This document shows positions 5,033-58,038 of a stretch of 58,038 nucleotides of DNA, piece after piece (position 1 is the first letter of the stretch; the number at the start of each line of letters is the position of its first letter). The stretch is from assembly GCA_027486845.1 (NCBI GenBank), contig JAIXOL010000050.1:1-58038 (forward strand). Reading direction: 5' to 3'. This stretch comes from Cytophagaceae bacterium. GTDB lineage: Bacteria > Bacteroidota > Bacteroidia > Cytophagales > Spirosomataceae. Below the pieces are notes generated by a model. That model worked only from the letters and a program-made list of their open reading frames with translations. It was not told the DNA's origin and did not search any database. Both the position numbers and the translations under genes were made by a program.

Positions 5033-5106
5033 CGGGGTGTAGCGTAGCCCGGTATCGCGTCTGCTTTGGGAGCAGAAGGTCGTCAGTTCGAATCTGGCCA
5101 CCCCGA
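5033..5106 (+). tRNA. tRNA-Pro(TGG), likely integration site
   Basis: The acceptor stem CGGGGTG (5033-5039) pairs with CACCCCG (5099-5105), with A5106 as discriminator. The anticodon stem TCTGC/GCAGA encloses TTTGGGA, giving anticodon TGG. The T arm is intact with GTTCGAATC. The integrase gene 286 bases downstream points away from the tRNA. This is the usual layout when an element has recombined into the 3' end of a tRNA gene and restored it, so attL probably overlaps the 3' half of this gene. Confidence 0.93.
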
Positions 5107-5130
5107 CAAAATAAGTAACAAGTAGCATCA

Positions 5131-5166
5131 AAAGCCTCAAAATCGTATGATTTTGAGGCTTTTTTG
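5131..5166 (+). terminator. Rho-independent terminator after tRNA-Pro
   Basis: The stem formed by 5131-5144 and 5149-5162 (core AGCCTCAAAATC) encloses the loop GTAT and runs into a T-rich tract. It ends transcription from the tRNA promoter before the integrase gene. Confidence 0.85.
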
Positions 5167-5208
5167 TTTATTTTGTGCTATTTCAAACCATATCATTTCA
5201 TATTGTAT

Positions 5209-5327
5209 GTGACCTATTCGGTGACCTCATTTTTTGATTACATTTGTGCGATAAGGTGATGTAAGTATTTGATAGTCAAATACTTGTGTCATTTTGTTTG
5301 ATTCGCTTTGATTTCATCTTGTGACCT
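5209..5327 (+). repeat. Three GTGACCT repeats upstream of the integrase
   Basis: GTGACCT occurs at 5209-5215, 5221-5227 and 5321-5327, all in the same orientation. The first two copies are 12 bp apart. They lie between the presumed crossover region at the tRNA end and the integrase start, where arm-type or accessory sites are normally found. This is a candidate only, as a 7-mer can recur by chance. Confidence 0.4.
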
Positions 5328-5391
5328 GTTAAAGCAGAAGAAACAAGAAGCAAAGCTAAATCATTTCAAATTACATCAAACAAAACAAATT

Positions 5392-6657
5392 ATGAGCAGT
5401 AGGCAAGCAACTTCCTTTGGCGTGTCATTTCACGCAAAAAAGAGCAAAGAAAAAGATGGAAAGCTTCCCATCTATGCACGAATTACAGTTGATAGTAAAC
5501 GTGTGGAATTATCAATCAAAAGAGATGTTGAGAAAGGCAATTGGGACGATGGTAAAGGCTCAGTGAAAGGCTCAAAGCCAGAAATTAAGGCCTTAAAGGT
5601 TCACATCGAGGAAATACGAAGGCGACTTTTTGAGTGTTTCGATGAACTTTTCAAAGATAAAAGACTGATTACCGCCGAGGCAATTAAAAACAAATACTTG
5701 TATCCTGAAGATACGGAATATACTTTGTTGAAACTCTTCGATTATCACAATGACCAATTGGCTCACACTGTTGAGTGGGGAACGCTTAAAAACTATTTCA
5801 CGACAAAAAAGTATCTCGAACTTTTCTTAAAAGAAAAATTCAAAACCAATGACGTATTTCTCGCCGAAGTCAACTACAAGTTCTTGGTTGATTTGGAATA
5901 TTTTATCAAAGTTCAGCAGCCATTGAATGAGAGTCAGAAATGTGGACATAACACTACTATGAAGCACATGGAGAGATTCAAAAAGGTTTTGAACATTGCC
6001 CTAAAAAACGAGTGGTTGAAGAAAAATCCTTTTGCAAATTTCCGTCTATCTTACAAGAAAGTTGACCGAGGTTTTTTGACTTTGGAAGATTTGGCTAAAA
6101 TTGAAGAAAAAGTGATTCAAGGAAATCGTTTGCAGAAAATCAGAGATTTGTTTGTGTTTGGGTGCTATACAGGCATCTCTTACATAGATGCAATGAACTT
6201 AACAACAGATAATCTAATCATGGGACTTGATGGAGAGCAATGGCTGGCAACTAATCGTCAAAAAACCGATGAAGCAGTCAGATTACCATTGTTGCCAAAA
6301 GCTTTAGAGTTGATTGAAAAATATCGTTATCACCCTGAATCCATCAAAGCAGGTAAAATTTTTCCGAGCATTACCAACCAAAGACTTAATATCTATTTAA
6401 AAGAATTAGCCGATTTATGTGGGGTAGAAAAACGACTTACTTTTCATATAGCTCGTCATACATTCGCCACGACAGTTACGTTAACCAATGGTGTTCCTAT
6501 TGAATCAGTTAGTAAAATGTTGGGACATTCGTCTATTCGTACAACTCAGATTTATGCCAGAGTTCTACAAGATAAATTGAGTGAAGATATGAAGAATCTC
6601 AAAGAAAGGCTTGGACAAAAGCAAATGGAGATTACACATCGAAAAACAGGGACATAA
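5392..6657 (+). CDS. Tyrosine recombinase/integrase, IntDOT-like
   Basis: This 421-residue site-specific recombinase has an N-terminal arm-binding domain (about residues 5-90), a SAM-like core-binding domain (about 110-210) and a C-terminal catalytic domain. The catalytic residues visible are Lys291, His352 and Arg355 in HIARH, His379 in LGH and the nucleophile Tyr388 in QIYARV. The first catalytic arginine is missing: the usual TGLR is TGIS here, with Ser263 at that position. IntDOT of the Bacteroides element CTnDOT is known for the same substitution. I chose the start at 5392 (MSSRQATS), which matches the family N-terminus. The frame from 5308 adds an unsupported extension. It lies directly behind tRNA-Pro and should catalyse integration there. 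Confidence 0.93.
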   Translation: MSSRQATSFGVSFHAKKSKEKDGKLPIYARITVDSKRVELSIKRDVEKGNWDDGKGSVKGSKPEIKALKVHIEEIRRRLFECFDELFKDKRLITAEAIKNKYLYPEDTEYTLLKLFDYHNDQLAHTVEWGTLKNYFTTKKYLELFLKEKFKTNDVFLAEVNYKFLVDLEYFIKVQQPLNESQKCGHNTTMKHMERFKKVLNIALKNEWLKKNPFANFRLSYKKVDRGFLTLEDLAKIEEKVIQGNRLQKIRDLFVFGCYTGISYIDAMNLTTDNLIMGLDGEQWLATNRQKTDEAVRLPLLPKALELIEKYRYHPESIKAGKIFPSITNQRLNIYLKELADLCGVEKRLTFHIARHTFATTVTLTNGVPIESVSKMLGHSSIRTTQIYARVLQDKLSEDMKNLKERLGQKQMEITHRKTGT

Positions 6658-6675
6658 GATTCTACCTTTTCTTGA

Positions 6676-7554
6676 TTAACTCTTCAATCCACCAAAAACC
6701 TGCTTATACTCGGCAGGTTTTTGATTTTTCAATAATCTAAAAGAACGGTTAAAATTTGATAAATTATGAAATCCACAATCAAATGCTATCTGCTGAATAC
6801 TTTTCTTATTTTCAATCAACATTCGACAGGCAAAGCCGATTCTTACCTCAGTTAAAAATTGAATATATGTTTTCTGAGTTCTACTTTTAAAATATTTACA
6901 AAAATTAGGTACTGACATATTTGCTACAATTGCAGCCTCTTCAATCAATATTTTCCTATGATATTGATTGAGCGTAAATTCATACACTTTATTGATTTTT
7001 TGTGTGTCAAACTTTTGATAGGCATCCACAAAAGCTTGGCTACTTAGCTGTTTCAAATCATTTGAAATCGCAATCAATTCAAGAATTTCCAAAAGAATAC
7101 AAAGTCGATTCAGGCTATTTGCTGTATCAAATATCTTGGACATTAGATGCACGACTTTCACTTTTGTTTCTCCCTCAATCCTTAAACCTAATGTTGATTT
7201 TTCAAACAAAGTCCTAATGTTTTCCAATTCTTTCAAACCATAAAACGTCTCACCAAAAAACTTTGGAAGAAACTGAATCACATTCGCCATCGCAATCTGG
7301 TCATCTCTACCTTCAAAATAACTACTATCATTTTTCCAAACATGAGGCAGATTTTCACCAATCAGCACTAAATCACCATCCTCAAAAAACTCAATACTAT
7401 CACCCACGAAACGATTTCCTTTTCCATGAATGATGTAGGTTAATTCTAACTCAGGATGAAAATGCCATTTGTTATAAAAATGTGAGAATCTATCCGTTCG
7501 AGCAACAAACGAATTGGCATCATTTGAATCAATTTTGCGAAGTATCGCCTGCAT
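6676..7554 (-). CDS. AraC-family regulator with cupin sensor domain
   Basis: This 292-residue regulator has an N-terminal cupin-type sugar-binding half (about residues 8-110, including HFHPELELTYI and GDLVLIGENLPHVW). Its C-terminal half is a double helix-turn-helix AraC domain (about 185-288) ending with the signature IAFDCGFHNLSNFNRSFR. I chose the start at 7554 (MQAILRKI). The frame runs on to 7695 but the extra residues look like translated intergenic DNA. It is divergent from the sugar-acid catabolic operon that begins at 7770, so it most likely activates that operon in response to fucose or a derivative. Its stop is 18 bases from the integrase stop, in convergent orientation. Confidence 0.9.
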   Translation of the reverse strand: MQAILRKIDSNDANSFVARTDRFSHFYNKWHFHPELELTYIIHGKGNRFVGDSIEFFEDGDLVLIGENLPHVWKNDSSYFEGRDDQIAMANVIQFLPKFFGETFYGLKELENIRTLFEKSTLGLRIEGETKVKVVHLMSKIFDTANSLNRLCILLEILELIAISNDLKQLSSQAFVDAYQKFDTQKINKVYEFTLNQYHRKILIEEAAIVANMSVPNFCKYFKSRTQKTYIQFLTEVRIGFACRMLIENKKSIQQIAFDCGFHNLSNFNRSFRLLKNQKPAEYKQVFGGLKS

Positions 7555-7645
7555 ATTGAATACTATTTGATAGTGTTTGTGCAAATTTGATAATATTTCA
7601 CCACTATTCCATAAGATTTCATAAAAAGTGCATATTTCAACAAGG

Positions 7646-7653
7646 TACTTTTG
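7646..7653 (+). promoter_or_regulatory. Candidate -7 box for the fucose operon
   Basis: TACTTTTG matches the Bacteroidota -7 consensus TAnnTTTG and faces the catabolic operon, 116 bases ahead of its first start codon. No TTTG lies at the usual -33 distance, which would fit an activator-dependent promoter such as one controlled by AraC. Weak evidence on its own. Confidence 0.35.
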
Positions 7654-7721
7654 CAATATGATTTTGTACTTAAATAAGAGTAGTTTTTGTTTCATAGGTT
7701 AAATTGATTAAGGTTATAGTA

Positions 7722-7769: not shown

Positions 7770-9425
7770 ATGAAAAATAAAGTTTTAAAAGTTCATCCAT
7801 CAGACAACCTAATTGTGGCTCTTCAAACATTAGAAAAATTTGAAGAAGTTGTTTTGGATGGAGAAAAATATATTTTACCAAATACCATAGAAGCTAAACA
7901 TAAATTTGTTACCCATGACCTCAATATTGGAGATACTGTAACAATGTATGGTGTAAGGGTTGGAAAAGCTATACAAAAAATAAAACGAGGAGAACAAATT
8001 ACAACCTTCAACCTTAAACACGAATCAGAAGAGTTTTCCGTAAAAAATAGAGTCCCCAAAAATGACTGGCAAGCACCTGATGTAAGTAAATGGAAGAACC
8101 GAACTTTCTTGGGCTACCATAGAAGTGATGGGCAAGTCGGCACAGCTAATTACTGGTTAGTTATTCCTTTGGTTTTCTGTGAAAACCGCAATATTCTTAA
8201 ATTGAAAGATGCTTTTGATAGAGCACTCGGCTACGCTTTTCCAGATGTCTATTTAAGGCAAGTTCAAGATTTGGTAAAACTGGAACAGTCAGGAAACTTT
8301 GAGGAGTTCTATAATTATAGTCCAAGCCAACCAAGTATAGCTACTGATAATCAAAGAATATTTTCCAATATCGACGGAATAAAATTCTTAACGCACGAAA
8401 TGGGATGCGGAGGAGCAAACTCTGACTCCGAAAGATTAGCAGCTCTTTTTGCAGCTTATGCTAATAATGCCAATGTAGCAGGAATTACGGTTTTGAGCTT
8501 AGGCTGTCAGAAAACACAATTGAGTGACTTAATGGAAGCTATAAAATCTCGCAATCCTTCCTTCGATAAAACTTTACTTTACTACGACCAACAAACTTTT
8601 GGGACAGAATTCGAGATGCTGTCAGCGGCAATCAAAGAGACATTTAAAGAACTTATCGAAGTCAACAAACTCACTCGAATACCAGCCCCACTTTCAAAGC
8701 TAAATATCGGACTAAAATGTGGAGGCTCTGATGGCTTTTCGGGAATTTCAGCAAACCCTGTTCTGGGGCATTTATCAGATTTGGTAGTTGCATTGGGAGG
8801 TCGCACTTATTTGGCAGAGTTTCCAGAATTATGTGGCGTTGAACAGGAACTCATCAATCGTTGTGTTTCGGAAGAAAAGGCTCAAAAGTTTGAAACATTA
8901 ATGAGAAACTACGCCGATTTAGCCAAAAGTTTAGGTGAAAGTTTCGACATGAATCCTTCATTTGGCAATATTAAAGATGGACTCATTACCGATGCCATCA
9001 AATCGGCAGGTGCAGCCAAAAAGGGAGGAACAGCACCAATTGTGGATGTTTTAGATTATACAGAAACTGCTAAGGTAGCAGGCTTACACTTGGTCTGCAC
9101 ACCTGGCAACGATGTGTTGGCTACTACTGGAAAAGCTGCCGCAGGAGCAACAATCATACTCTTTACAACAGGTTTGGGTACACCTACAGGAAATCCGATT
9201 TGCCCCGTAGTGAAAGTTTCGACCAATACAAAGTTGGCAAATAAGATGCCCGACATCATTGATTTTGACTGTGGTGCTATTATTGAAGGTGAGAAAACGA
9301 TTCAACAAACCGCCGAAGAATTACTCGAATACTGCATAGACTTAGCAAGTGGTAAATTCCAAACTAAAGCCCAAATTTTAGGGCAAGATGATTTTATTCC
9401 GTGGCAGAAAGGCATTAATTTATAA
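7770..9425 (+). CDS. UxaA-family sugar-acid dehydratase (probable L-fuconate dehydratase)
   Basis: This 551-residue protein belongs to the altronate/galactarate dehydratase (UxaA) family. It has the N-terminal SAF-type domain (about residues 5-85, containing NIGDTVTMYG) joined to the large catalytic domain. Family motifs include GYHRSDGQVGTANYW, EMGCGGANSDSER with the conserved cysteine, SLGCQKTQ, LKCGGSDGFSGISANP and EFPELCGVEQ. It heads an operon that otherwise matches non-phosphorylative L-fucose catabolism, where the second half of the pathway needs a dehydratase that turns L-fuconate into 2-keto-3-deoxy-L-fuconate. The characterized Xanthomonas pathway uses an enolase-superfamily enzyme here. 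A UxaA-type protein in this slot recalls the fucose cluster of Campylobacter. The exact substrate is inferred from context; altronate is the alternative. Confidence 0.82.
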   Translation: MKNKVLKVHPSDNLIVALQTLEKFEEVVLDGEKYILPNTIEAKHKFVTHDLNIGDTVTMYGVRVGKAIQKIKRGEQITTFNLKHESEEFSVKNRVPKNDWQAPDVSKWKNRTFLGYHRSDGQVGTANYWLVIPLVFCENRNILKLKDAFDRALGYAFPDVYLRQVQDLVKLEQSGNFEEFYNYSPSQPSIATDNQRIFSNIDGIKFLTHEMGCGGANSDSERLAALFAAYANNANVAGITVLSLGCQKTQLSDLMEAIKSRNPSFDKTLLYYDQQTFGTEFEMLSAAIKETFKELIEVNKLTRIPAPLSKLNIGLKCGGSDGFSGISANPVLGHLSDLVVALGGRTYLAEFPELCGVEQELINRCVSEEKAQKFETLMRNYADLAKSLGESFDMNPSFGNIKDGLITDAIKSAGAAKKGGTAPIVDVLDYTETAKVAGLHLVCTPGNDVLATTGKAAAGATIILFTTGLGTPTGNPICPVVKVSTNTKLANKMPDIIDFDCGAIIEGEKTIQQTAEELLEYCIDLASGKFQTKAQILGQDDFIPWQKGINL

Positions 9426-9430: not shown

Positions 9431-10198
9431 ATGATATTTAGTTTAGAAAATAAAGTAGCCGTTGTAACTGGCGGAGCGAGTGGAATAGGCTTATCCATTA
9501 CCAAACTGTTTGCACAACAAGGGGCAAAAATACATGTGTTAGAGTTAAGTACTGAAGTAGCAAGTAAGCAAATCAAAGATGCTATTCAGGATACTCAAAA
9601 TGTATCTATCCATGCTTGCGATGTAAGCAATTTAGCCCAAGTGGAAGATGTTATCAACAACATAAAAAATATTGACATCTTAGTAAATAACGCAGGGATA
9701 GCCCATGTTGGCAACGCAGAAAATACCAATGAACTTGATTTTGACAGAGTAATCAACGTCAATGTAAAAGGGGTTTATCATTGCGTACATGCTGCTTTAC
9801 CTCTGATGAAAGCTAATGGTGGCGGTGTAATTTTGAATATGGCATCGGTAGCTTCATCCGTAGGTATTTCCGATAGGTTTGCCTATTCGATGTCAAAAGG
9901 TGCAGTGCGGTCTATGACTCAATCCATCGCCAAAGATTTCTTAAAGGATAATATACGATGTAATTGTATTTCTCCTGCACGAGTTCACACGCCTTTTGTT
10001 AATGGTTTTATTGCTAAAAATTTTGAAGGCAAAGAGCAAGAAACCTTTGATAAACTATCAAAATCACAGCCTATCGGAAGAATGGGTACACCCGATGAAA
10101 TAGCCTATTTAGCACTTTATTTATGTTCGGCAGAATCGGGTTTCGTCACAGGTTGTGATTATCCAATTGATGGTGGATTTATTTACCTAAACAATTAA
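9431..10198 (+). CDS. SDR oxidoreductase, probable 2-keto-3-deoxy-L-fuconate dehydrogenase
   Basis: This is a 255-residue classical short-chain dehydrogenase. The nucleotide-binding motif TGGASGIG is at residues 13-20, NNAG near 86-89, and the catalytic residues are Ser139, Tyr152 and Lys156 (YSMSK). The region IRCNCISPARVHTPFV resembles the DHRS6/BDH2-like branch that includes the Xanthomonas 2-keto-3-deoxy-L-fuconate dehydrogenase. It would oxidize 2-keto-3-deoxy-L-fuconate at C4 to the 2,4-diketo acid with NAD. It starts 5 bases after the dehydratase gene and 4 bases precede the hydrolase gene, so the three consecutive pathway steps are tightly co-translated. Confidence 0.82.
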   Translation: MIFSLENKVAVVTGGASGIGLSITKLFAQQGAKIHVLELSTEVASKQIKDAIQDTQNVSIHACDVSNLAQVEDVINNIKNIDILVNNAGIAHVGNAENTNELDFDRVINVNVKGVYHCVHAALPLMKANGGGVILNMASVASSVGISDRFAYSMSKGAVRSMTQSIAKDFLKDNIRCNCISPARVHTPFVNGFIAKNFEGKEQETFDKLSKSQPIGRMGTPDEIAYLALYLCSAESGFVTGCDYPIDGGFIYLNN

Positions 10199-10202: not shown

Positions 10203-11063
10203 ATGAAATTATTACGCTTTGGTGAGTTTGAAAACGAAAAACCAGCTCTTGAATTAAGTAATGGTAAAAGAATAGATGTTTCAGCCTTTGGCGAAGATTA
10301 TAATGAAGCTTTCTTTGCTTCTGATGGGTTAACTCGTCTTGCAAAATGGTTAGAAACAGAGATAGCAGCTTGTCCAGAAGTTCCAGCCAATGCTCGTATT
10401 GGTTCTTGTATTGCTCGCCCATCTAAAATAGTTTGTATTGGTCTCAATTACGCCAAACATGCAGCCGAATCGGGTATGGCAGTTCCTACTGAGCCTGTTG
10501 TTTTCTTTAAGTCAACCACCGCTCTTTGTGGACCTTTCGATGATGTAGTTATTCCAAGAAATTCTGATAAAACAGATTGGGAGGTAGAGCTTGCCGTAAT
10601 CATTGGGAAAAAAGCTTCATATATAAACGAAGAAGATGCTATGGATTATGTAGCTGGCTATGCCCTTCATAATGATTATTCTGAACGAGCTTTTCAACTC
10701 GAACGAGGAGGTCAATGGGTCAAAGGAAAAAGCAGTGATACTTTTGCTCCACTTGGTCCAATCATGGTTACAAAAGACGAAGTTTCAGACCCTCAAAATC
10801 TTAGATTATGGTTGAGTGTCAATGGTGAAATGCTTCAAGATTCAAATACTAACGATATGATTTTCGATGTCAAACATATCGTTTCTTACCTAAGCCAATT
10901 TATGACATTACTACCTGGTGATGTTATTTCAACGGGTACACCTTTTGGTGTAGGTCTTGGTTTTAAGCCGCCAAGGTACTTGAAAGCTGGCGATATCGTA
11001 GAACTTGGTATTGATAATTTGGGCACTCAAAGACAGCAAGCGGTAAACTATTCAACCCTATAA
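10203..11063 (+). CDS. Fumarylacetoacetate hydrolase family protein (2,4-diketo-3-deoxy-L-fuconate hydrolase-like)
   Basis: This 286-residue protein has the FAH fold. A small N-terminal domain is followed by the catalytic core from about residue 75 (CIGLNYAKHAAESG). The metal-binding acidic residues lie in DWEVELAVIIGKKA, and GDVISTGTPFGVG is the family signature near the C-terminus. In the non-phosphorylative fucose pathway a FAH-family hydrolase splits 2,4-diketo-3-deoxy-L-fuconate into pyruvate and L-lactate. The immediate neighbours supply its substrate and consume lactate, which supports this role. Other acylpyruvate hydrolase or ureidoglycolate lyase-like activities exist in the family. 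Confidence 0.83.
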   Translation: MKLLRFGEFENEKPALELSNGKRIDVSAFGEDYNEAFFASDGLTRLAKWLETEIAACPEVPANARIGSCIARPSKIVCIGLNYAKHAAESGMAVPTEPVVFFKSTTALCGPFDDVVIPRNSDKTDWEVELAVIIGKKASYINEEDAMDYVAGYALHNDYSERAFQLERGGQWVKGKSSDTFAPLGPIMVTKDEVSDPQNLRLWLSVNGEMLQDSNTNDMIFDVKHIVSYLSQFMTLLPGDVISTGTPFGVGLGFKPPRYLKAGDIVELGIDNLGTQRQQAVNYSTL

Positions 11064-11066: not shown

Positions 11067-11840
11067 ATGAATCTTAATTTAAAAGATAAGGTCATCATCG
11101 TAACTGGCGGTGCTAAAGGAATCGGTGAAGGTATCGTAAATGTTTTGGCTCAAGAAGGTGCTATTCCAGTAATTATTGGACGAAACGAAGCTGATAATAA
11201 CAAAACCCTCAATGAAATTGGAGGAAAAGGTTTCCAAGTGCTTGCCGAATTAAGTAAGCCCGAAGAATGTAAAAAAGCTATTGAAGAAGTAATGAGACAA
11301 TTCGGTAGAATAGATGGCTTGGTAAATAATGCTGGAGTTAACGACGGTGTTGGTCTCGAAAATGGTAACTATGAAGCATTTATTTCTTCATTGCATAAAA
11401 ACTTGGTTCATTACTACCTCATGGCACATTATGCTTTGCCTGCCCTCAAGGCATCAAAAGGTAGTATTGTAAATATCGGTTCAAAAACTGCTGAAACAGG
11501 TCAAGGCGGAACATCGGCTTATGCAGCTTCTAATGGTGGACGAAATGCACTTACTCGTGAATGGGCGGTGGAATTATTGCCTTTTGGGATTCGAGTAAAT
11601 GCTCTCATAGTAGCAGAATGTTACACGCCATTGTATGATAAATGGATTAAGACATTACCAAACCCAGAAGAAACTTTATCGAAAATAAACAGTAAAATAC
11701 CTTTTGGCAACCGTATGACTACTGCCGATGAGATTGCCAATATGGTTGCATTTCTGCTTTCTGATAAATCAAGCCATACCACTGGTCAACTGATTCATGT
11801 GGATGGTGGATACGTACATCTTGACAGGTCGCTCATTTAA
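11067..11840 (+). CDS. SDR oxidoreductase, probable L-fucose dehydrogenase with altered catalytic motif
   Basis: This 257-residue short-chain dehydrogenase has TGGAKGIG (13-20), NNAG (87-90), Ser139 and Tyr152. The usual catalytic Lys of YxxxK is Asn156 (Tyr-Ala-Ala-Ser-Asn, codon AAT at 11532-11534). The segment AECYTPLYDKWI resembles bacterial L-fucose dehydrogenases. It would oxidize L-fucose at C1 to L-fucono-1,5-lactone, the first step of the pathway. It starts 4 bases after the hydrolase gene. The missing lysine either marks a family variant in which another residue lowers the tyrosine pKa, or it reduces activity. No lactonase gene is seen in the operon, so lactone opening may be spontaneous or encoded elsewhere. 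Confidence 0.75.
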   Translation: MNLNLKDKVIIVTGGAKGIGEGIVNVLAQEGAIPVIIGRNEADNNKTLNEIGGKGFQVLAELSKPEECKKAIEEVMRQFGRIDGLVNNAGVNDGVGLENGNYEAFISSLHKNLVHYYLMAHYALPALKASKGSIVNIGSKTAETGQGGTSAYAASNGGRNALTREWAVELLPFGIRVNALIVAECYTPLYDKWIKTLPNPEETLSKINSKIPFGNRMTTADEIANMVAFLLSDKSSHTTGQLIHVDGGYVHLDRSLI

Positions 11841-11856
11841 ACTCAACCCTAACCTT

Positions 11857-13110
11857 ATGAAAACTGAAAAGAACAATTATCTCATTCCATTTATTTTAGT
11901 AACAAGTTTGTTTTTCCTTTGGGGAATTTCAAATAACCTGACAGGTATATTGATTCCTCATCTACGAAAAGCATTACAATTGACTAATACTCAATCCACA
12001 TTTGTTGATACGGCTGTTTATTTAGCCTATTTCTTAACTGCAATTCCAGCAGGACTTATTCTCAATAAATTTGGCTATAAAAAAGGCATCATTGCTGGAC
12101 TATTGGTATTTAGTTTAGGGGCTTTTTTATTCATTCCTGCCGCCAATACCCGTACTTTTGAGATATTTCTCTTGGGGCTTTTTATCATTGGTTGTGGTCT
12201 TACCATTCTCGAAACGGCAGCAAATCCTTACGCTACCAAGTTGGGCGACCCCAATGGTGCAACAACAAGGCTGAATTTAGCCCAATCTTTCAACGGTTTA
12301 GCTGCTTTTTTAGCCCCAATGATAGGTACATTATTCATTCTTTCGGGTAAAGAGTATTCTGAAAGCGAGCTTTTGTTAATGCCTGAAGCTGATAAAATAG
12401 CTTACTTGACCTCAGAAGCGGCATCAGTAAAACTTCCTTACATGATTTTGGGTGGTTTCCTTTTGCTCTTGGCTGTTGTTTTCATGATTTTGAAATTCCC
12501 TGAATTTAAAGAAGAAAATAAAGCAAATACATCGGGTAGTATCGGACAAGCTCTCAAACAAAAACATTTGGTTTGGGCAGTAATCACCCAGTTTTTCTAT
12601 GTGGGTGCTCAGGTATGCGTAACAAGCTTCTTTGTTCGTATGGCCATTTCAGGCGGTGGTGTAGATGAGAAAACGGCTGGATACTACCTCGGCGTTTATG
12701 GACTACTATTTATGTCTGGTCGATTTATTGGAACAATCATCATGCGATACATACCACCTGCTAAGTTGCTTGCCATTTACGCTTTATTGTGTATTCTACT
12801 CAGTTGTGTTGCTATTTATGCCGATGGCAAAAATGTAGTATTGGCACTGGGTGGCTTAGGTTTTTTTATGTCAATCATGTTTCCTACCATATTTTCACTG
12901 GGTATCAAAGACCTCAACGAGAACACCAAACCTGCTTCTTCACTAATCGTGATGTCAATCATTGGCGGGGCAATATTTCCAGTAATCATGGGTAAAATCA
13001 TTGATAATTCGGGCGATGATATTCAAAAAGGATATATCGTACCACTGCTATGCTTTTTTGTCGTCTTATACTTCGGAATAAAAGGACATCAACCTAAAAC
13101 CCAATCATAA
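11857..13110 (+). CDS. fucP: L-fucose:H+ symporter, FucP family MFS
   Basis: This is a 417-residue major facilitator transporter with twelve predicted membrane segments. The N-terminus (PFILVTSLFFLWGISNNLT) and the internal ETAANPYATKLGDP segment are hallmarks of the FucP/GluP branch (fucose, galactose or glucose proton symport across the inner membrane). I chose the start at 11857 (MKTEKNNY), 16 bases after the SDR stop. The frame open from 11797 would overlap that gene. Its position among fucose catabolic genes, with fucosidases downstream, makes L-fucose the likely cargo. Confidence 0.88.
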   Translation: MKTEKNNYLIPFILVTSLFFLWGISNNLTGILIPHLRKALQLTNTQSTFVDTAVYLAYFLTAIPAGLILNKFGYKKGIIAGLLVFSLGAFLFIPAANTRTFEIFLLGLFIIGCGLTILETAANPYATKLGDPNGATTRLNLAQSFNGLAAFLAPMIGTLFILSGKEYSESELLLMPEADKIAYLTSEAASVKLPYMILGGFLLLLAVVFMILKFPEFKEENKANTSGSIGQALKQKHLVWAVITQFFYVGAQVCVTSFFVRMAISGGGVDEKTAGYYLGVYGLLFMSGRFIGTIIMRYIPPAKLLAIYALLCILLSCVAIYADGKNVVLALGGLGFFMSIMFPTIFSLGIKDLNENTKPASSLIVMSIIGGAIFPVIMGKIIDNSGDDIQKGYIVPLLCFFVVLYFGIKGHQPKTQS

Positions 13111-13111: not shown

Positions 13112-13447
13112 ATGAAACGCTATTGTTTAGCCTTAGACCTAAAAGATGATGCCAAACTCATTGCCGAGTATGAGCAATTACATCAAGAGATTTGGCCAGA
13201 AATAGAAGCTACCATCATTGACTCGGGCATCGTGAGTATGGAAATTTACAGAATTGGTGTTCGTCTATTTATGATTATGGATACTACTGATGATTTTTCT
13301 TTTGAAGCAAAGAGTAAAGCCGATGCTGAAAATCCAAAAGTACAAGAATGGGAAAACTTTGTTTGGCAATACCAACAAGCCTTACCTATGGCAAAAGAAG
13401 GAGAGAAATGGATACTGATGAATAAAATATTTGATTTGAAAGCATGA
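13112..13447 (+). CDS. RhaM-family sugar mutarotase (probable L-fucose mutarotase)
   Basis: This 111-residue protein belongs to the L-rhamnose mutarotase family (PF05336). Recognizable parts are LHQEIWPEI with the conserved catalytic His, GIVSMEIYRIGVRLFMIM, and a C-terminal acidic/Trp-rich end (WENFVWQYQQ). It interconverts sugar anomers so that the dehydrogenase is supplied with the correct form. In fucose operons that use the oxidative route, a member of this family can serve fucose. It begins 1 base after the fucP stop and its own stop overlaps the start of the FMN dehydrogenase gene (13444-13447). Confidence 0.83.
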   Translation: MKRYCLALDLKDDAKLIAEYEQLHQEIWPEIEATIIDSGIVSMEIYRIGVRLFMIMDTTDDFSFEAKSKADAENPKVQEWENFVWQYQQALPMAKEGEKWILMNKIFDLKA

Positions 13448-34577: not shown

Positions 34578-34589
34578 CCTTAATCTGAC

Positions 34590-44712: not shown

Positions 44713-44718
44713 TAAAAT

Positions 44719-45834: not shown

Positions 45835-45882
45835 AATCAGGTATTTGGACAATTTTATTCGTAAACTATTAAAACTGTAAAA

Positions 45883-47577: not shown

Positions 47578-47638
47578 GATATTTTGATTGGCCAAAAATT
47601 GAAGAGTATTGTTTTTCAAAGAATAATTCTAACTAAAA

Positions 47639-51026: not shown

Positions 51027-51047
51027 AAAATTAACCAGCAACCAACA

Positions 51048-52715
51048 ATGGTACAATTAGATTTCATAGTTATGGCAGTTTTTGCCTTGCTCATACTATC
51101 AATCGGTATGGCATTTACCCGTATGGGAAGTAAAAACTCTCAATCATTTTTTGAAGGCGGCGGTGCAATTCCTTGGTGGATAAACGGTTTGTCGCTTTTT
51201 GTGAGTTACTTTTCAGCGGGTACATTTGTAGTGTGGGGTTCAATTGCCTACAAACACGGATTGGTTGCCAACGGTATTCAATTAACAATGGTTTTAGGTG
51301 GTTTGATAACAGCTATTTTCCTCGCAAAAAAATGGAAACGGACGGGTGCTGTAACGGCTGCCGAATATATTGGACAACGATTTGGAGTTAAAACACAACA
51401 ATTTTACACCTATCTTATTATGTTGCATGGTCTGTTTATGACCGCCTCAGTTTTATATCCTGTGGGAAAAATGGTACATGTAGCAACACCACTATCGCTT
51501 GAAACGTGTATTATCATTATCGGTACGATGATTATTTTATACACAGCTGCAGGTGGTTTATGGGCTGTTTTGGTGACAGATGTGGTGCAATTTGTGGTAT
51601 TAGCATCGGCTGTATTAATCGTTATACCAATAGCTTTTGGCTATGTAGGTGGAGTCAATAATTTTGTCAATCAAGCACCTCAAGGCTTTTTTAATTTTTT
51701 CAACGAAGAATATTCAATTGGTTTTGCCTTAGCTTTTTTGGTGTATCAAACGACCTATATTGGTGGTAATTGGGCGTATGTACAGCGTTATACAAGCGTT
51801 GCCAATGAGCGAGACTCTCAAAAAGTGGCGTATCTATTTTCGGGGTTATATCTCATCAGCCCTTTTATTTGGATGTTGCCACCTATGATTTATCGTATTA
51901 TTAACCCTAATTTGCAAGGCTTAGAGCCCGAAGGAGCATACATGATGCTTTGCCAAAAGGTTTTACCAGCAGGGTTAATCGGTTTAATCTTAGCGGGGAT
52001 GGTCTCGGCAACAGCCAGTAAGGCGAATACGACGATTAACTTGGTTGCCACTGTGTTTGCCCATGATGTGTATCGAAATCTTTTTAACCCAAAAGCTTCT
52101 GAAAAAACTTTGATTTTCTCAGCTCGTATTTTTACCGTTTTGTTTGGTGCATTAACGATATGGATAGCGATACTTGTGCCAAAAGTCGGAGGCATCGTAG
52201 AATTGGTTTTGAGTACCGCTTCGATAGCGGGCGGTGCTTTGTTTGCACCAATTATTTGGTCATTGTTTTCAAAGCGGCAAACAAGTTTTTCGGTCGTAAC
52301 CATCTCAGTTATTGCTTTAGTTGTGAGTTTGTTTTTCAAAATATTCAGCTTATCTGTTTTGGGTTTTAAACTCAATCGAACTTATGAAACTGTATTCGGT
52401 GTAGGTCTACCGCTATTGCTTTTAGCTTTATTTGATATCTATCAGTTATTAAGAGGTGTAAAAAATGAACACATCCTGATTCAAAACAAAGATATACAAG
52501 CAGAAATGCCCACCAAAACGCACCCACATAACACCGAAGAATCTAATCAACAAAATCGCTTTGGGGTTCAAGTTATTGCTTTATCTATGGGTTTTGTGGG
52601 TTTGGGAGTATCCATATTAGGTTTATTTGCCAATCAGAATATTCCTGCAATAGTTGTTGGTTTGTTAGTATTTTGCTTTGCGGTAATTATCTGGTGGCGG
52701 ACTAAAAAAATTTAG
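51048..52715 (+). CDS. Sodium:solute symporter (SSS family)
   Basis: This 555-residue inner-membrane protein has about thirteen hydrophobic segments and SSS-family motifs: FFEGGGAIPWWINGLSLFVS near residue 35, GAVTAAEYIGQRFG near 103 and GMVSATASKANTTINLVATV near 323. The last two helices are separated from the rest by a charged loop (about residues 470-505). SSS proteins import sugars, sialic acid or organic acids with sodium. Placed between two FAD-dependent oxidoreductases, it may import the sugar or sugar acid they act on. FucP is available for fucose itself, so this one probably carries something else. Confidence 0.88.
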   Translation: MVQLDFIVMAVFALLILSIGMAFTRMGSKNSQSFFEGGGAIPWWINGLSLFVSYFSAGTFVVWGSIAYKHGLVANGIQLTMVLGGLITAIFLAKKWKRTGAVTAAEYIGQRFGVKTQQFYTYLIMLHGLFMTASVLYPVGKMVHVATPLSLETCIIIIGTMIILYTAAGGLWAVLVTDVVQFVVLASAVLIVIPIAFGYVGGVNNFVNQAPQGFFNFFNEEYSIGFALAFLVYQTTYIGGNWAYVQRYTSVANERDSQKVAYLFSGLYLISPFIWMLPPMIYRIINPNLQGLEPEGAYMMLCQKVLPAGLIGLILAGMVSATASKANTTINLVATVFAHDVYRNLFNPKASEKTLIFSARIFTVLFGALTIWIAILVPKVGGIVELVLSTASIAGGALFAPIIWSLFSKRQTSFSVVTISVIALVVSLFFKIFSLSVLGFKLNRTYETVFGVGLPLLLLALFDIYQLLRGVKNEHILIQNKDIQAEMPTKTHPHNTEESNQQNRFGVQVIALSMGFVGLGVSILGLFANQNIPAIVVGLLVFCFAVIIWWRTKKI

Positions 52716-52766
52716 TTGAAGTTATTAACAGGTGTTAAAATTTAACAAAATTAAAAATATAACAGT

Positions 52767-54698
52767 ATGAAAAGAAGACATTTTATAGGAGCTTTAGGCA
52801 ATACCAGTTTGATGCTTCTGGCTGGAGGTTTATCAGATATAAAGGCATTTTCAAACAAAAAAACTACTAATGAATTTGTCTTTCTTGAAGCCGAACAATT
52901 TACAAATTATGGTGGATGGAACATAGACCAACAATCTATGGAAAAAATGGGAAGCCCATATTTATTAGCTCATGGACTGGGAATACCTGTGGAAAATGCT
53001 ACTACCGAAGTGCAATTTCCTTCGGAAGGAACTTATCGTGTTTGGGTACGTACCAAAGATTGGGTTGCTCATTGGAATGCCCCAGGTTCACCTGGCAAAT
53101 TTCAACTATTAGTAAATAATATACCTTTAAAAGAAACTTTTGGAACCAAAGGAGCAGATTGGCATTGGCACGATGGTGGAACTATTAAAGTAGGGAAAAA
53201 GGCAAAAATCGCATTACACGATTTAACGGGATTTGAAGGTAGATGCGAAGCAATTTTATTTTGTAAGGATATTAATTTTCAACCAATTAATGATATTGCC
53301 TCTCTAACCAAGTTTAGGCGTAAACTTTTAGGGTTCCCTGACAAACCAGCCGATGGTGGGTCATTTGATTTGATAGTGATTGGAGGTGGGTTAGCAGGAA
53401 CATGTGCTGCTATTTCTGCTGCAAGGAATGGTGTAAAAGTGGCATTGGTACAAGATAGACCTGTGTTGGGTGGAAATGGCAGTTCCGAAGTACGGGTATG
53501 GCCAGAAGGACATACCAATAAACAGCCTTATCCACACATTGGCGATATTGTGAGTGAAATTTTACCAAATATTGTAAAAGGTCCTGGACAAGTTTTCAAT
53601 GGTGTAAGTGCCGAATATTACGACGATAACCTAAAGTTAGAAGTTGTTAAGCGTGAACCAAACATTACACTTTTTATTGAAAATAGGGCAATTGAAGTAT
53701 TGGTAAAAGATAGCAAAATCAATGGTATTGTTATCCAAAATATAAAAACAGCCAGACAGCTAAGCCTCAAAGGTAAGTTTTTTGCTGACTGTACGGGCGA
53801 TGCTGTTGTAGGCTTCAAGGCAGGGGCTGACCATGAATATAAAGTTGAAAATCTGATGGGTAGTTCAAATCTATTCCATGTACTTGACGCCACCAATAAA
53901 GAAGAGGTATTAAAGTGTGAATGTAAAGATAAAAGTGCATTGGCCATGAAATGTGAGGTTGGAGAGTTTGCCCAACCGTTTCCAAGATGTCCATGGGCAT
54001 TAGATTTAGCAAATAAACCATTTCCTGGCCGTAAGGGAGTAAAAACTTTTGGAGAAGAAGGACTACAATCTTTTGCTAATATGTGGTATTGGGAAAGTGG
54101 TTTCAATCAAAATCAAGTAACAGAAATTGAGCAAATTAGAGACCACAACTTCAGAGCTATGTACGGAGCATGGGATGTAATTAAAAATGTTGATAAAATG
54201 TATCCGAACCATCGTTTGGGCTGGTCGGCATACATTGCTGGTAAACGAGAATCTCGTAGATTGATGGGTGATGTTGTTTTGGATGCAGAAGATTTTAAGA
54301 AACAAACAAAGTTTGAAGATGGTGCTTTTCCATGTTCTTGGCACGTTGATTTGCATACACCTAAAAAAGAATTTAAAGAGGGTTTAGAAGGAATGGAATT
54401 CATCTCTGACTACACCCGAGGAAAAGAGTATCAATATGGAGGTCTCTATTGGGCACCTTATCGCACACTTTATAGTCGTAATATAAGTAATTTGTTCATG
54501 GCTGGTAGAAATATTAGCGTAACAAAAACAGGACTCGGGCCAGTAAGAGTGATGAGAACTTGCGGAATGATGGGCGAAGTAGTAGGTAAGGCCGCTTCGA
54601 TTTGCGTAAAAAAAGATGCAACACCTCGGCAAGTATATGAAAAACATCTTCCAGACCTTATCGCATTATTAAATGAACCTGGAGGTAAGAAGATATAA
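52767..54698 (+). CDS. Exported FAD-dependent oxidoreductase with N-terminal beta-sandwich
   Basis: This 643-residue protein starts with a Tat-like leader (KRRHFIGALGNTSLMLLAGG), so it is probably exported folded with its cofactor. Residues 35-180 form a carbohydrate-binding-like beta domain (FLEAEQFTNYGGW, GTYRVWVRTKDW). The PF12831 FAD domain follows from about residue 197 (LIVIGGGLAGTCAAISAARNG, VQDRPVLGGNGSSEVR) and ends with YSRNISNLFMAGRNISVT near residue 575. It shares the FAD-binding core with the protein at 48744-51026 but lacks that protein's long C-terminal tail. Oxidation of a glycan or sugar outside the cytoplasm is the likely role. It is the last gene before the terminator. Confidence 0.8.
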   Translation: MKRRHFIGALGNTSLMLLAGGLSDIKAFSNKKTTNEFVFLEAEQFTNYGGWNIDQQSMEKMGSPYLLAHGLGIPVENATTEVQFPSEGTYRVWVRTKDWVAHWNAPGSPGKFQLLVNNIPLKETFGTKGADWHWHDGGTIKVGKKAKIALHDLTGFEGRCEAILFCKDINFQPINDIASLTKFRRKLLGFPDKPADGGSFDLIVIGGGLAGTCAAISAARNGVKVALVQDRPVLGGNGSSEVRVWPEGHTNKQPYPHIGDIVSEILPNIVKGPGQVFNGVSAEYYDDNLKLEVVKREPNITLFIENRAIEVLVKDSKINGIVIQNIKTARQLSLKGKFFADCTGDAVVGFKAGADHEYKVENLMGSSNLFHVLDATNKEEVLKCECKDKSALAMKCEVGEFAQPFPRCPWALDLANKPFPGRKGVKTFGEEGLQSFANMWYWESGFNQNQVTEIEQIRDHNFRAMYGAWDVIKNVDKMYPNHRLGWSAYIAGKRESRRLMGDVVLDAEDFKKQTKFEDGAFPCSWHVDLHTPKKEFKEGLEGMEFISDYTRGKEYQYGGLYWAPYRTLYSRNISNLFMAGRNISVTKTGLGPVRVMRTCGMMGEVVGKAASICVKKDATPRQVYEKHLPDLIALLNEPGGKKI

Positions 54699-54854: not shown

Positions 54855-55220
54855 GTGGCTAAATTAATCCAGTTACCAACTATCCAAGACTATAAAGGCA
54901 AACTCACCGTTTTTCAAGATTTACTTCCTGATGGTATCAAAAGAGTATTCTATATATACGACCATCAAGCAGAAACAAGAGGCGGACACCGCCATAAGAA
55001 TGCTACTCATGCCCTTATATGTCCTGTTGGGTCTTGCAAAATATACATCAATGATGGTATAAATGAGCCAGTTTTCACGCTTGATTCTCCCCAAAAATGC
55101 CTGATACTAAACCCAGAAGATTGGCGTAAAATGTATGACTTCTCAGAGGATGCCCTCTTGTTATGTCTGTCCAACACTATTTATGACCCCGACGATTATA
55201 TAACAATACCTTATAAATAA
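54855..55220 (+). CDS. FdtA/WxcM-like cupin protein (sugar 3,4-ketoisomerase family)
   Basis: This 121-residue cupin protein resembles the FdtA/QdtA/WxcM family of sugar 3,4-ketoisomerases that act on dTDP-4-keto-6-deoxyglucose. The conserved block YIYDHQAETRGGHRHKNATH carries the catalytic/metal-type histidines (GGHRHKNATH), and VGSCKIYINDG forms the next cupin strand. The reading frame begins with GTG at 54855; no better ATG exists inside the conserved part. It is separated from the glycan locus by the terminator at 54804 and from the rteC gene by 56 bases. No other nucleotide-sugar genes lie nearby, so its partner enzymes are elsewhere or it has another role. Confidence 0.78.
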   Translation: MAKLIQLPTIQDYKGKLTVFQDLLPDGIKRVFYIYDHQAETRGGHRHKNATHALICPVGSCKIYINDGINEPVFTLDSPQKCLILNPEDWRKMYDFSEDALLLCLSNTIYDPDDYITIPYK

Positions 55221-55276: not shown

Positions 55277-56083
55277 ATGATTAACCTATACCTATTGATG
55301 GAGGAAGAGTTAAATGCCATCAACGAAAACAATCAAATCCATGAAGCCCTAAAAGCAATCAATATCTGCCAAGAGTATCTTGGAAAACTTAAAAAGCACA
55401 TTGAAGAAAATCCTCTTAAAACCACTGAGGAAGAAATTCATTTTTTCAAATCTATCAAGCCTAAATTCCAATCTAAACTGTTTTTTTATCTAAAATGGTA
55501 TCATATACAGATTCGCAAAATTGCTTCTGATAATAAGACAATCGTAGAGTATTATCAGAAAGAATGTCGAAAATTAAAGCGTTTTTCCAAAGAAACCATT
55601 GATTTTCAAACCTATCTTCACTCTGGTCAAACTCATTTTGATGAAAAGTTCTTCACTCGAAATAACCCCGATTTAACTATATACATAGAGCCATTATACA
55701 GTGTATTAGATAATTCTTTTAGTACAACCCATGATTACTTAACTGCTAAAATAATGGCTCATGATATGCTAATGAAGAGCCTTCAGACAGAGATTTCTAA
55801 GCTATCAAAGCAAAATAAAAATATTCAAAGTCAGTACAAATGGACGGATAAAAAAATCGACTTAGTAGAGTTAATATACGCTATTCATACATCAAATAGC
55901 ATTAATAGAGGTAATATTGAAATCTCAGAAATAGCAGAAATTTTCTCAGAAGTATTCAATGAAGACTTAGGGAATATCTATCGAACCTACGCTGAGATTA
56001 AAAATCGTAAAAACCCTACCCGATATATCGACCACTTAAAAGACAAACTACTCGAAAAAATTGACGATGAATTAGGTAATTAA
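55277..56083 (+). CDS. rteC: RteC-family regulator of conjugative element excision
   Basis: This 268-residue protein matches the RteC family. The C-terminal half carries the strongest family pattern: KWTDKKIDLVELIYAIHTS, EIAEIFSEVFNEDLGNIYR and YAEIKNRKNPTRYIDHLK. In CTnDOT, RteC activates the excision operon in response to upstream regulators RteA and RteB. No RteA/RteB pair is seen in this window. It is followed by the excisionase-type gene, which could be its target. The start could be 55277 or the internal Met at 55298 (MEEELNAI). Its presence argues that this part of the window is an integrative conjugative element. Confidence 0.88.
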   Translation: MINLYLLMEEELNAINENNQIHEALKAINICQEYLGKLKKHIEENPLKTTEEEIHFFKSIKPKFQSKLFFYLKWYHIQIRKIASDNKTIVEYYQKECRKLKRFSKETIDFQTYLHSGQTHFDEKFFTRNNPDLTIYIEPLYSVLDNSFSTTHDYLTAKIMAHDMLMKSLQTEISKLSKQNKNIQSQYKWTDKKIDLVELIYAIHTSNSINRGNIEISEIAEIFSEVFNEDLGNIYRTYAEIKNRKNPTRYIDHLKDKLLEKIDDELGN

Positions 56084-56096: not shown

Positions 56097-56119
56097 ACAC
56101 CCACCTTCGGTGTTTTTTT
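56097..56119 (+). terminator. Weak rho-independent terminator after rteC
   Basis: A short stem ACACC/GGTGT (56097-56101 with 56109-56113) is followed by a run of seven Ts. It lies 14 bases after the rteC stop codon. Confidence 0.55.
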
Positions 56120-56290
56120 GCAACGTGTAGTAATATACCTCTAAAAATTAAAATGTTAATCATTCACGAATAAGTAAATTCAAAAAAAATGTTTTGTAGC
56201 CTACTGCTAAATACTGAATTATAACTTTTCCAACTGCCGAAATTTGCATTCGTATTGAACCTATTTGTTAACATCAATTCAAAATAATTT

Positions 56291-56557
56291 ATGGCAGTAG
56301 AAATTCTAACAAAAGACGACCTACAACAATTTAAAAATGATTTATTTGCTGAACTTAAAAAAGTAATCAAAGACAGTCCTGCTACCACTAAGTACTTGCA
56401 ATCATTCGAGGTTCGAAAGATGCTCAATATTTCCCCTGGTACACTTCAACATCTTCGAGTGTCTGGTCAATTACCCTATACCAAACTTGGAGGCAAAATC
56501 TTCTACGATTCTGAAGATATTCGGAAGATGATAGAAAAAGGTAAGGTAAAAGCCTAA
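56291..56557 (+). CDS. Helix-turn-helix excisionase-like protein
   Basis: This 88-residue protein has a MerR/excisionase-type HTH (HTH_17) in its C-terminal half: YLQSFEVRKMLNISPGTLQHLRVSGQLPYTKLGGKIFY. The N-terminus is a short coiled-coil-like region (LTKDDLQQFKNDLFAELKK). Small proteins of this type in Bacteroidota elements act as recombination directionality factors or regulators of excision. It lies between rteC and the primase gene, an order common in Bacteroidota integrative elements. It would cooperate with the integrase at 5392-6657 if both belong to the same element. Confidence 0.85.
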   Translation: MAVEILTKDDLQQFKNDLFAELKKVIKDSPATTKYLQSFEVRKMLNISPGTLQHLRVSGQLPYTKLGGKIFYDSEDIRKMIEKGKVKA

Positions 56558-56603
56558 TCCTTTTAAACTACCAAACGTAACCCATCAAAAGTAAAATTTA
56601 TAA

Positions 56604-56633
56604 AATCTCCCATTTTAGCATAAATGGGAGATT
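56604..56633. promoter_or_regulatory. 12-bp inverted repeat upstream of the primase gene
   Basis: Arms at 56604-56615 and 56622-56633 (core ATCTCCCATTT) are perfect reverse complements with a 6-base loop. The element lies 31 bases ahead of the primase start and has no T-run on the plus strand. It could be an operator for the HTH protein upstream, a regulatory leader hairpin or a weak terminator. Confidence 0.5.
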
Positions 56634-56664
56634 AAATCATCTCAATCTCTCTATTACAATAAGT

Positions 56665-57993
56665 ATGACTAAAAATGAAATTTTGGGCAAAACCCAAGGT
56701 GGCCTTACTGTGTTTAAACATTTCTTACCAGTACAATTTAAAATCGGAAAGAGTTTTCTAAATCCTTTCTATCAAGATACCAAAGCATCATGCAATATCT
56801 ACCTTGATAAAAAATCTGGCATCTATAAAATCAAAGATTTTGGTGATAATCGTTTCAATGGCGACTGTTTCTCTTTCGTGGCTGCTCTCAATAATCTAAA
56901 CATTGCAGACCGAGATGATTTCAAAAAAGTAATCAGCATAATCGAGCAGGAAGTACTGCTAAACAGTACTTCCGAGCCTATGCCTAATCGAATACCTATA
57001 ATCAAAGAAACCCCAGAAAATACATCAAGCAGCATCGAACAAATAACTTTCAAAGACTTATCGCAGGCCGAACTAAGTTTCTGGCAAAAATATAACATTA
57101 CCCAAACTGTCTTAGAAACCTTCAATGTGCATAGCATTCAAAGTTTCACAGCCACCAATAAGAATGGCAAACAATATACCATTCAAAGCACTGAGGCAGA
57201 ACCCATATTTGGCTACAAGCACAAACATTTTATCAAAGCTTATCGCCCAAATTCTGAACTACGTTTCCTCTTTTTGGGTGAAAAGCCCGATAACTATGTT
57301 TTCGGACTTGACCACCTGCCACCACGTGGTGATGTACTTTTTATCACTGGCGGAGAAAAAGATGTCATGACATTGAACGCTCACGGCTTCTTCGCAATCT
57401 GCTTCAATTCCGAAAATGCAACCATCCCTCCCGAAGTAGTTCGCAAGCTATCATACCGCTTTCGCCATATTGTTTTATTATACGATGTTGACCAAGCAGG
57501 GCTTGATGCAGCCACCTACCACCAACAAAAACTAAAAGATTTCGACATCAAAGTAATGCTCCTACCACTTTCTGGCAAAAAATCAGAAAAAGACATCTCT
57601 GACTTTTTCAGATTAGGCCATACTGCTGAAGAACTAAAAATACTCTTCAATCAATTACTCGAAAACCTTTATGCCCAGACTTTCGCCATGCTCAAGTCAT
57701 GCGAAATTGATTTCAAACGCCCTCCAAAAATCCCTAAACCCTTAGTGACCATAGCAGGCGTAACCATCGGCAGCCAAGGTAATCTATTGGGAATCACAGG
57801 CAACGAAGGCTCAGGGAAATCCAATTTCCTCGGTGGAATGATTGCAGGAGCATTAGCCCAAGCAGGTCAAAAAGTAGATAGTTTGGGTACACAAGTTTTA
57901 CCTAACCTGTCAGGCAAAAGTGTATATTCCTGCGAAACTGAGCCACCGATTGTAGGGAAAGTGAGCCACCTGTGGATAAGTGAAAAGCGATAA
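56665..57993 (+). pseudogene. Toprim/ATPase primase-like protein, 3' end interrupted
   Basis: The frame gives 442 residues. The N-terminus resembles a CHC2-type primase domain without its cysteine-histidine set (about 30-80; YKIKDFGDNRFNGDCFSFV). A Toprim domain follows (about 205-310) with Glu in ITGGEKD and the Asp pair in LLYDVDQAGLDAA. A RecA-like ATPase begins with the Walker A GNEGSGKS near residue 381. Shortly after, the protein stops: the last 14 residues or so lie in DNA that looks like an insertion-sequence end (from about 57939). The Walker B and remaining ATPase region are therefore lost or lie beyond the window, past the insertion. Intact relatives act in element replication. It follows the HTH gene as usual in such elements. 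Confidence 0.78.
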
Positions 57994-58038
57994 AAAAAGC
58001 CGTTGTTTGTGAGTATTATTTTATTAAAAAATACTTAT
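57939..58038. mobile_element. Probable end of an insertion sequence (IS21-type)
   Basis: TGAGCCACC occurs at 57939-57947 and 57962-57970, 23 bp apart in the same orientation. Repeated sites of this kind at an element end are typical of the IS21 family. The primase homology stops at this boundary and the following DNA does not code for the expected ATPase. No transposase start is reached before the window ends, so family assignment is tentative. Confidence 0.5.

Follow-up and report, generated by a model that had tools for sequence, protein, structure and literature searches.

Is the fucose-glycan locus of this Cytophagaceae bacterium a resident part of the chromosome, or was it brought in by an integrated element? 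The window (the whole stretch of DNA analyzed, 58,038 bp) is an entire contig, C40, of a 5.36-Mb genome in 82 contigs (G000), which probably belongs to Emticicia, the genus of E. aquatilis. An earlier note, made from the window sequence, had proposed that the locus is cargo of a CTnDOT-like integrative and conjugative element (ICE). We consider it likely that the fucose operon and the adjoining polysaccharide utilization locus (PUL) are cargo of a single integrase-inserted island of about 95 kb at a tRNA-Pro gene. The tRNA was called with ARAGORN, protein domains were assigned by Pfam and functions by NCBIfam models with curated cutoffs; five comparison genomes are labeled G004 (E. aquatilis), G005, G006, G008, and G010, and L numbers denote loci. 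The following features frame the locus.

5033..5107, plus strand: tRNA-Pro(TGG), the integration site (ARAGORN)
5108..5391, no strand: left end of the element, with repeated GTGACCT-type motifs (from the sequence)
5392..6657, plus strand: tyrosine integrase, 421 aa, intact frame with first ATG at 5392 (Arm-DNA-bind_5, Phage_int_SAM_5, Phage_integrase)
55277..56083, plus strand: RteC (PF09357, E 4e-68)
56291..56557, plus strand: HTH_17 excisionase-type protein (Pfam)
56665..57918, plus strand: first part of a Toprim primase gene split by an insertion sequence (IS) (Pfam; other part on contig C39, up to base 886)
57911..57918, no strand: string shared by both IS junctions, CAGGCAAA (also at C39:117-124)
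57919..58038, no strand: end of an IS21-like element, from about 57921 (comparison with the copy on contig C16)

The tRNA-Pro gene is intact and adjoined by the integrase, and RteC, the HTH protein, and the primase lie on the right, all as the earlier note had described, except that the primase gene, present from 56665, is cut by the IS at the contig end. The last 18 bases of the tRNA (window 5090-5107) form the att core. The note had suggested searching to the right for a repeat of the tRNA 3' end, and an exact distal copy (18/18 bases) was found as a direct repeat at C39:39452-39469. No att copy occurs between the integrase and the PUL, the arrangement that the note had named as contrary to its proposal, nor does one lie between the PUL and rteC; outside the tRNA itself, exact matches to it in the window reach no more than 10 bases. 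The island thus delimited runs from window 5090 through the IS (∼2.5 kb, a length taken from the C16 copy) to C39:39469, and the fucose operon and PUL, with its SusC/SusD and glycoside hydrolase genes, fall inside it. The GTGACCT-type motifs repeated at the left end are possible integrase arm sites.

An empty tRNA-Pro site, which the note had also suggested seeking in relatives, was found in G006 (L031), a genome of the same genus. There, the tRNA-Pro gene is directly followed by DNA matching C39 beyond att (about 85 to 91% identity), and the sequence to the left of tRNA-Pro in the window matches the opposite side. Because these flanks match both outer flanks of the island and are joined directly, the site is read as empty. 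Several decayed copies of the tRNA end lie within it.

The assignment of C39 rests on the right end of the window, which stops inside the IS. Its last 118 or so bases are part of the C16 copy, which looks intact (two IS21-like frames, with Mu-transpos_C_2 in the larger one). C39 opens with the opposite IS end and then carries on the primase reading. In E. aquatilis, the primase homolog is uninterrupted (671 aa) and contains CAGGCAAA once, and the matches to the window and to C39 meet there with 8 shared bases. The IS ends, the short duplicated string at the junction, and the unbroken E. aquatilis gene together make it very likely that the window truly continues into C39. The target duplication would measure 6 to 8 bp, as the first two bases of the C39-side CAGGCAAA may belong to the IS end. 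Although C71 and C16, two other candidates for the continuation, also carry the IS end, C39 alone carries on with the primase and the flank.

What the island carries beyond the primase was surveyed by a Pfam scan of all 32 nonoverlapping open reading frames (ORFs) of at least 90 aa up to C39:38784; the window scan covered 35 proteins, with the HTH protein scanned separately. The island part of C39 includes the remainder of the primase, which has no Pfam match, and an IS66-family transposase. The other recognized products are an ATPase with a partial Avs1b match, a dynamin-like GTPase, an exonuclease-BRCT protein, HTH, HipA, DUF932, and PD-(D/E)XK proteins, a two-component pair, an outer-membrane receptor, HigB-like, HTH-M78, LRAT-like, and SAVED proteins, two SMODS/DncV-like cyclases, DUF5675, and a nuclease; 12 of the 32 ORFs had no Pfam match. 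PADLOC reports a CBASS set at C39:33588-37308 (L024:13588-17305), comprising a SAVED-HNH effector, two different cyclases, and an E2-like protein.

Among all of these window and C39 proteins, Pfam recognized no relaxase, coupling, or transfer protein, and the 32 C39 proteins include no second integrase. A genome-wide relaxase search with a single family (PF03432) gave three matches, all off the island, on C52 and C26. RteC is present in CTnDOT. Set against the CTnDOT family of ICEs, the island shows the integrase domain type and RteC, and no relaxase, coupling, or transfer gene was recognized on it. The integrase sequence, read by eye, appears to retain the catalytic H-x-x-R and Y, with Ser replacing the first Arg. 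Because neither a relaxase nor a transfer gene was recognized, the element is, by present evidence, a tRNA-Pro genomic island and not an ICE, and in this respect the earlier note is not upheld. With the primase gene split and no relaxase recognized, mobility is probably impaired in this strain.

E. aquatilis carries a sister element at G004:C1, about 813 to 863 kb, which bears on whether rteC and the primase share an element with the integrase. The order there is tRNA-Arg, another integrase, a second tRNA-Arg, a 3' remnant of the integrase gene, a SusCD locus, rteC, and primase. The remnant (126 bp) matches the 3' end of the window integrase gene at 97.6% identity; the integrase between the tRNA-Arg genes has the same domain type and is 41% identical to that of the window. 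The stretch holding this foreign integrase and the remnant (L192:2868-4811; G004:C1:812868-814811) suggests that one integrase replaced another. At the far side of the element, neither tRNA-Arg end has a copy beyond chance-length matches. In both genomes, a SusCD locus occupies the place between the integrase and rteC; that of E. aquatilis is a sigma/anti-sigma/SusC/SusD locus with a phosphodiesterase gene and differs from the window PUL. Since E. aquatilis keeps the order of integrase remnant, SusCD, rteC, and primase, the element most likely includes rteC and the primase and has a slot for cargo between the integrase and rteC.

In E. aquatilis, rteC is split into two frames, and the primase gene shows 95.9% nucleotide identity. 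Beyond the primase lie matches to C39:117-1575 (90%), 15931-16595 (97%), 16640-21381 (94%), 27898-29374 (93%), and 30098-30954 (96%), with weaker ones (65 to 72%) to C39 1930-11473 between them; in the host flanks, identity between the two genomes is about 80 to 83%. Synonymous divergence (dS) was estimated for the 13 island genes with a reciprocal match. It is 0.17 for the primase and 0.05 to 0.33 for seven other backbone genes versus 0.32 to 1.15 for six flanking core genes. These comparisons indicate recent sharing of much of the backbone by two species of the genus, with parts of it variable, and the dS contrast with the core lends indirect support to transfer of the backbone between hosts.

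The cargo itself comprises the following genes.

6676..7695, minus strand: AraC-type regulator adjoining the fucose operon (Pfam)
7770..9425, plus strand: UxaA/GarD-type dehydratase, probable L-fuconate dehydratase, specificity inferred (Pfam, NCBIfam)
9431..10198, plus strand: short-chain dehydrogenase/reductase (SDR), probable 2-keto-3-deoxy-L-fuconate dehydrogenase, inferred (Pfam, NCBIfam)
10203..11063, plus strand: FAA-hydrolase family protein, probable 2,4-diketo-3-deoxy-L-fuconate hydrolase (best NCBIfam model below cutoff)
11067..11840, plus strand: L-fucose dehydrogenase (NF052481, 419.5 bits; cutoff, 300)
11797..13110, plus strand: FucP fucose permease (TIGR00885, 372.6 bits; cutoff, 280.4)
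13112..13447, plus strand: RhaM-family sugar mutarotase (Pfam)
13444..14592, plus strand: FMN-dependent L-lactate dehydrogenase-like protein (Pfam, NCBIfam)
14753..17236, plus strand: 827-aa protein without a family (paralog on C67 of the same genome)
17337..21318, plus strand: GH95 and GH29 fucosidases (Pfam)
21568..22743, minus strand: LacI-type regulator (Pfam)
23068..32664, plus strand: two SusC/SusD pairs (Pfam)
32751..48664, plus strand: GH16, SASA-GH95, GH16, GH2, GH43, GH43, GH29, GH43 (Pfam, PDB matches)
48744..54698, plus strand: FAD oxidoreductase, SSF transporter, FAD oxidoreductase (Pfam)
54855..55220, plus strand: FdtA/WxcM-like protein (Pfam)

Two SusCD pairs, glycoside hydrolases, and FucP therefore lie between the integrase and rteC, in agreement with the earlier note. 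The window encodes two GH16, two GH95, two GH29, one GH2, and three GH43 domains, and these families, together with PDB matches that are weak for the GH16 domains, point to a fucosylated, galactose-containing glycan as the PUL substrate. The 827-aa protein is matched by neither Pfam nor NCBIfam, and nothing in the PDB is related to it at better than E 0.28; its paralogs adjoin an FAD oxidoreductase on C67 of G000 and on C89 of G006.

The note had further read a whole oxidative fucose route from the window. FucP and L-fucose dehydrogenase each score above their NCBIfam cutoffs; the dehydratase, SDR, and FAA hydrolase are of plausible families and lie in one operon, but no above-cutoff model names fuconate substrates. 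As encoded in the window, the route lacks a lactonase gene: no amidohydrolase of PF04909, the L-fuconolactonase family, was found among the Pfam-scanned window proteins. Three PF04909 genes lie elsewhere in the genome. G000 also has a second copy of the fucose operon on C30 (88.7% identical) and a third L-fucose dehydrogenase on C56 (84%). A search with the dehydrogenase, and not with the rest of the operon, found relatives (E 1e-90 or better) in 115 of 120 family genomes. Given the C30 copy and these relatives, the fucose route is not new to the host, and the novelty that the note had seen in it is weakened. The fucose chemistry looks ordinary for the family; what the island adds is a further operon copy tied to a polymer locus.

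How often do such integrases occupy tRNA-Pro? The closest integrase found is 96% identical and comes from an Emticicia metagenome-assembled genome (MAG). Sixty related integrase loci were collected, seven of which have too little upstream sequence; among the 53 testable loci, 32 have a tRNA-Pro gene within 700 bp upstream on the same strand. With ten SusC/SusD queries, on either strand and with sequence length varying among loci, a SusC-like match was found downstream of the integrase in 8/60 loci (L092, L100, L105, L126, L130, L131, L149, and L151) and upstream in 1/60 (L143). By these counts, targeting of tRNA-Pro is common in the integrase group, and SusCD neighbors recur in a minority. Within the genus, window 35000-54900 is matched (E 1e-30) in 3 of 11 genomes (G000, G010, and G006, the last solely by its C89 locus), and window 14800-34600 in 6 of 11.

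Relatives show several other states at tRNA-Pro. The left end (5108..5391) is whole in G005 and in L092. G005 has lost an internal part of the integrase and all but the end of AraC. In L092 (MAG EMPMRC01), the integrase lies in two frames, 96 to 97% identical, behind an att copy outside any tRNA; beyond it, a truncated AraC is joined to the end of the fucose operon, followed by a PUL resembling that on C30 of G000. The att and left end outside a tRNA (L092:134-440) have the form of a tandem element or a circle-type junction. At the tRNA-Pro of E. aquatilis (L055-L057; G004:C1, about 713 to 756 kb), a ∼43-kb insertion that appears phage-like by eye lies between 22- to 23-bp repeats. In G008 (L053/L054; G008:C1:122001-150000), DNA after tRNA-Pro matches C39 59 to 87 kb in inverted order, a chromosomal rearrangement at the site.

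In G010, tRNA-Pro is followed by the left end up to the equivalent of window 5254; the integrase stretch is absent, so that AraC comes next and then the fucose operon. PUL pieces on C218, C232, and C67 of G010 match much of the window PUL. On C67, homology with the window breaks off at 54835, just past the last gene of the PUL, and the right flank of the chromosome comes next, with no rteC. No att copy was found on the searched part of this contig, and alignment of the flank with E. aquatilis begins only about 135 bp past the att place. On these grounds, the right side of the locus looks like a deletion; with the left-end scar as well, we read G010 as a decayed copy of the element. An fdtA remnant after the PUL was considered and rejected (its alignment score was 38, whereas 200 shuffles reached up to 48). 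There is a 51-base overlap between C218 and C232, the left side of C218 runs into genes that look housekeeping-like by eye, and C67 links the PUL end to the right flank of tRNA-Pro; the PUL region (L164, L170-L172, L165, and L059) is rearranged or misassembled. For the genes retrieved, excluding pairs below 60% identity, median dS between G000 and G010 is 0.57 for the island (18 genes) versus 0.86 for the flanks (11 genes; p 0.0015). The G010 flanks are about 78 to 85% identical to those of G000, compared with about 85 to 91% for G006.

Several of these observations weigh against a single cargo-bearing island. G010 has the locus at tRNA-Pro without integrase and without rteC, formally the situation that the earlier note had named as adverse to its proposal, but its left end is kept and the integrase stretch is what is missing. 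As this locus lacks rteC, only one genome shows the fucose PUL linked to rteC. Five of the 13 reciprocal island genes are not close in E. aquatilis; the integrase gene, a LacI-type gene (outside the sister element), and the STAND and dynamin genes have dS values of 1.8 to 2.3, and rteC is 65% identical over 105 residues, with dS not estimable. The dS contrast with G010 is modest, and raw identities of island and core overlap. Twenty-one of the 53 testable integrase loci have no tRNA-Pro upstream, and the G+C contents of the cargo (37.7%), C39 core (36.7%), and left core (30.9%) form an uninformative contrast. An ancestral PUL beside tRNA-Pro, lost in G006 and joined later by the integrase, would accommodate the presence of the locus in G010, whose flanks are more distant than those of G006. 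However, G010 keeps the left end to 5254 and lacks the integrase stretch only, as after deletion; L092 and G005 retain the same left end with the integrase or part of it; and island dS lies below flank dS between G000 and G010. We regard this history as very improbable.

Equally little weight attaches to the alternative that the earlier note itself had raised, two unrelated elements flanking a resident PUL. G000 has paralogs of the fucose operon on C30 and of the PUL's first and last genes on C67, which would suit a resident origin, but the empty site in G006 joins both outer flanks directly, the sole distal att found is that at C39:39452, and the sister backbone spans both sides. An accretion strikes us as unlikely, though deserving of attention. 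In that history, the integrase and the fucose PUL would have made up an island by themselves, to which the rteC-primase backbone was added afterwards, either as another element or through recombination with one like that of E. aquatilis. It would explain why G010 homology stops at window 54835 and gives way to the chromosomal flank without rteC, and the backbone dS relative to E. aquatilis (0.05 to 0.33 in eight genes) is far below the median of 0.57 for the PUL and operon relative to G010. Against it stand the lack of an att copy at about 54.8 kb and of a second integrase among the 32 scanned C39 proteins, the order of integrase remnant, SusCD, and rteC in E. aquatilis, and the deletion-like right side of G010. 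Taken together, the distal att, the empty site, and the sister element favor the claim of the earlier note that a single integrase-bounded element at tRNA-Pro carries the locus as cargo.

For this single island, we envisage that an IntCTnDOT/NBU-type tyrosine integrase inserted it into the 3' end of tRNA-Pro(TGG); the tRNA is whole, and an 18-bp repeat of its end lies at the far side. The backbone runs from the integrase through the cargo slot, rteC, HTH gene, primase, variable defense and toxin-antitoxin genes, and DUF932/PD-(D/E)XK genes to the right end, an order seen in G000 and partly in E. aquatilis. In G000, the slot holds an AraC-controlled L-fucose oxidation operon and a PUL with fucosidases, GH16, GH2, and GH43 enzymes; fucose released by the PUL would, judging from the protein families, be oxidized to pyruvate. 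Excision may be performed by the integrase with the HTH protein, and transfer may proceed in trans or as chromosomal DNA. It is also possible, though less likely than not, that the genus harbors a modular PUL carrier, with an integrase-rteC-primase backbone whose dedicated slot between integrase and rteC exchanges whole SusCD loci. The AraC-fucose operon would be a recurrent part on the integrase side and the polymer loci behind it would be swapped, while integrase deletion would leave PULs chromosomally fixed, as in G010.

NBU1 targets tRNA-Leu, and CTnDOT has sites of its own; in contrast, the present island sits at tRNA-Pro, with no tra genes or relaxase recognized. Its integrase resembles those of CTnDOT and NBU1 in having arm-binding, core-binding, and catalytic domains. 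The IntCTnDOT integrase subgroup is treated in PMC8138268, which cites a 1996 paper by Shoemaker whose title places NBU1 entry at a tRNA 3' end, as for the island described here. PULs of gut Bacteroides occur on ICEs and mobilizable plasmids according to parts of PMC8845570, and a section of PMC6907783 counts 47 SusC+SusD loci on mobile genetic elements. Such elements, with PULs for porphyran, agarose, and carrageenan, likewise join SusCD and depolymerase genes on mobile elements; here, the genus is another one, the carrier is a tRNA-Pro island without recognized transfer genes, and the cargo includes a monosaccharide oxidation operon. The fucoidan/ulvan PUL of Maribacter dokdonensis 62-1 includes sulfatases and a lactonase, neither of which was found in the window, and the part of its report consulted does not describe it as element-borne. 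Lentimonas also keeps fucoidan degradation genes on a large plasmid, but this is a verrucomicrobial megaplasmid with microcompartments, according to portions of PMC8857213 and PMC8072126, rather than an att-bounded island. Literature searches on Emticicia fucose metabolism or PULs, on fuconate with PULs, and on tRNA-Pro ICEs in flavobacteria found no paper on such an island. PUL-bearing mobile elements are thus already known, and the island is a clear, well-bounded further case. In B. ovatus and B. xylanisolvens, a part of PMC8845570 reports that most variable regions lie between core genes without mobile genes, and it offers the explanation that ICEs aimed at sites such as tRNAs delivered these regions and were then deleted. 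The present genus presents possible stages of such a process together: an empty site in G006, an intact integrase in G000, an internally deleted one in G005, a PUL with no more than a left-end scar in G010, and, in E. aquatilis, the same backbone bearing a different SusCD locus. Because these stages are visible within one genus, which includes the collection strain E. aquatilis CGMCC 1.15958, the proposal of delivery followed by deletion becomes testable there.

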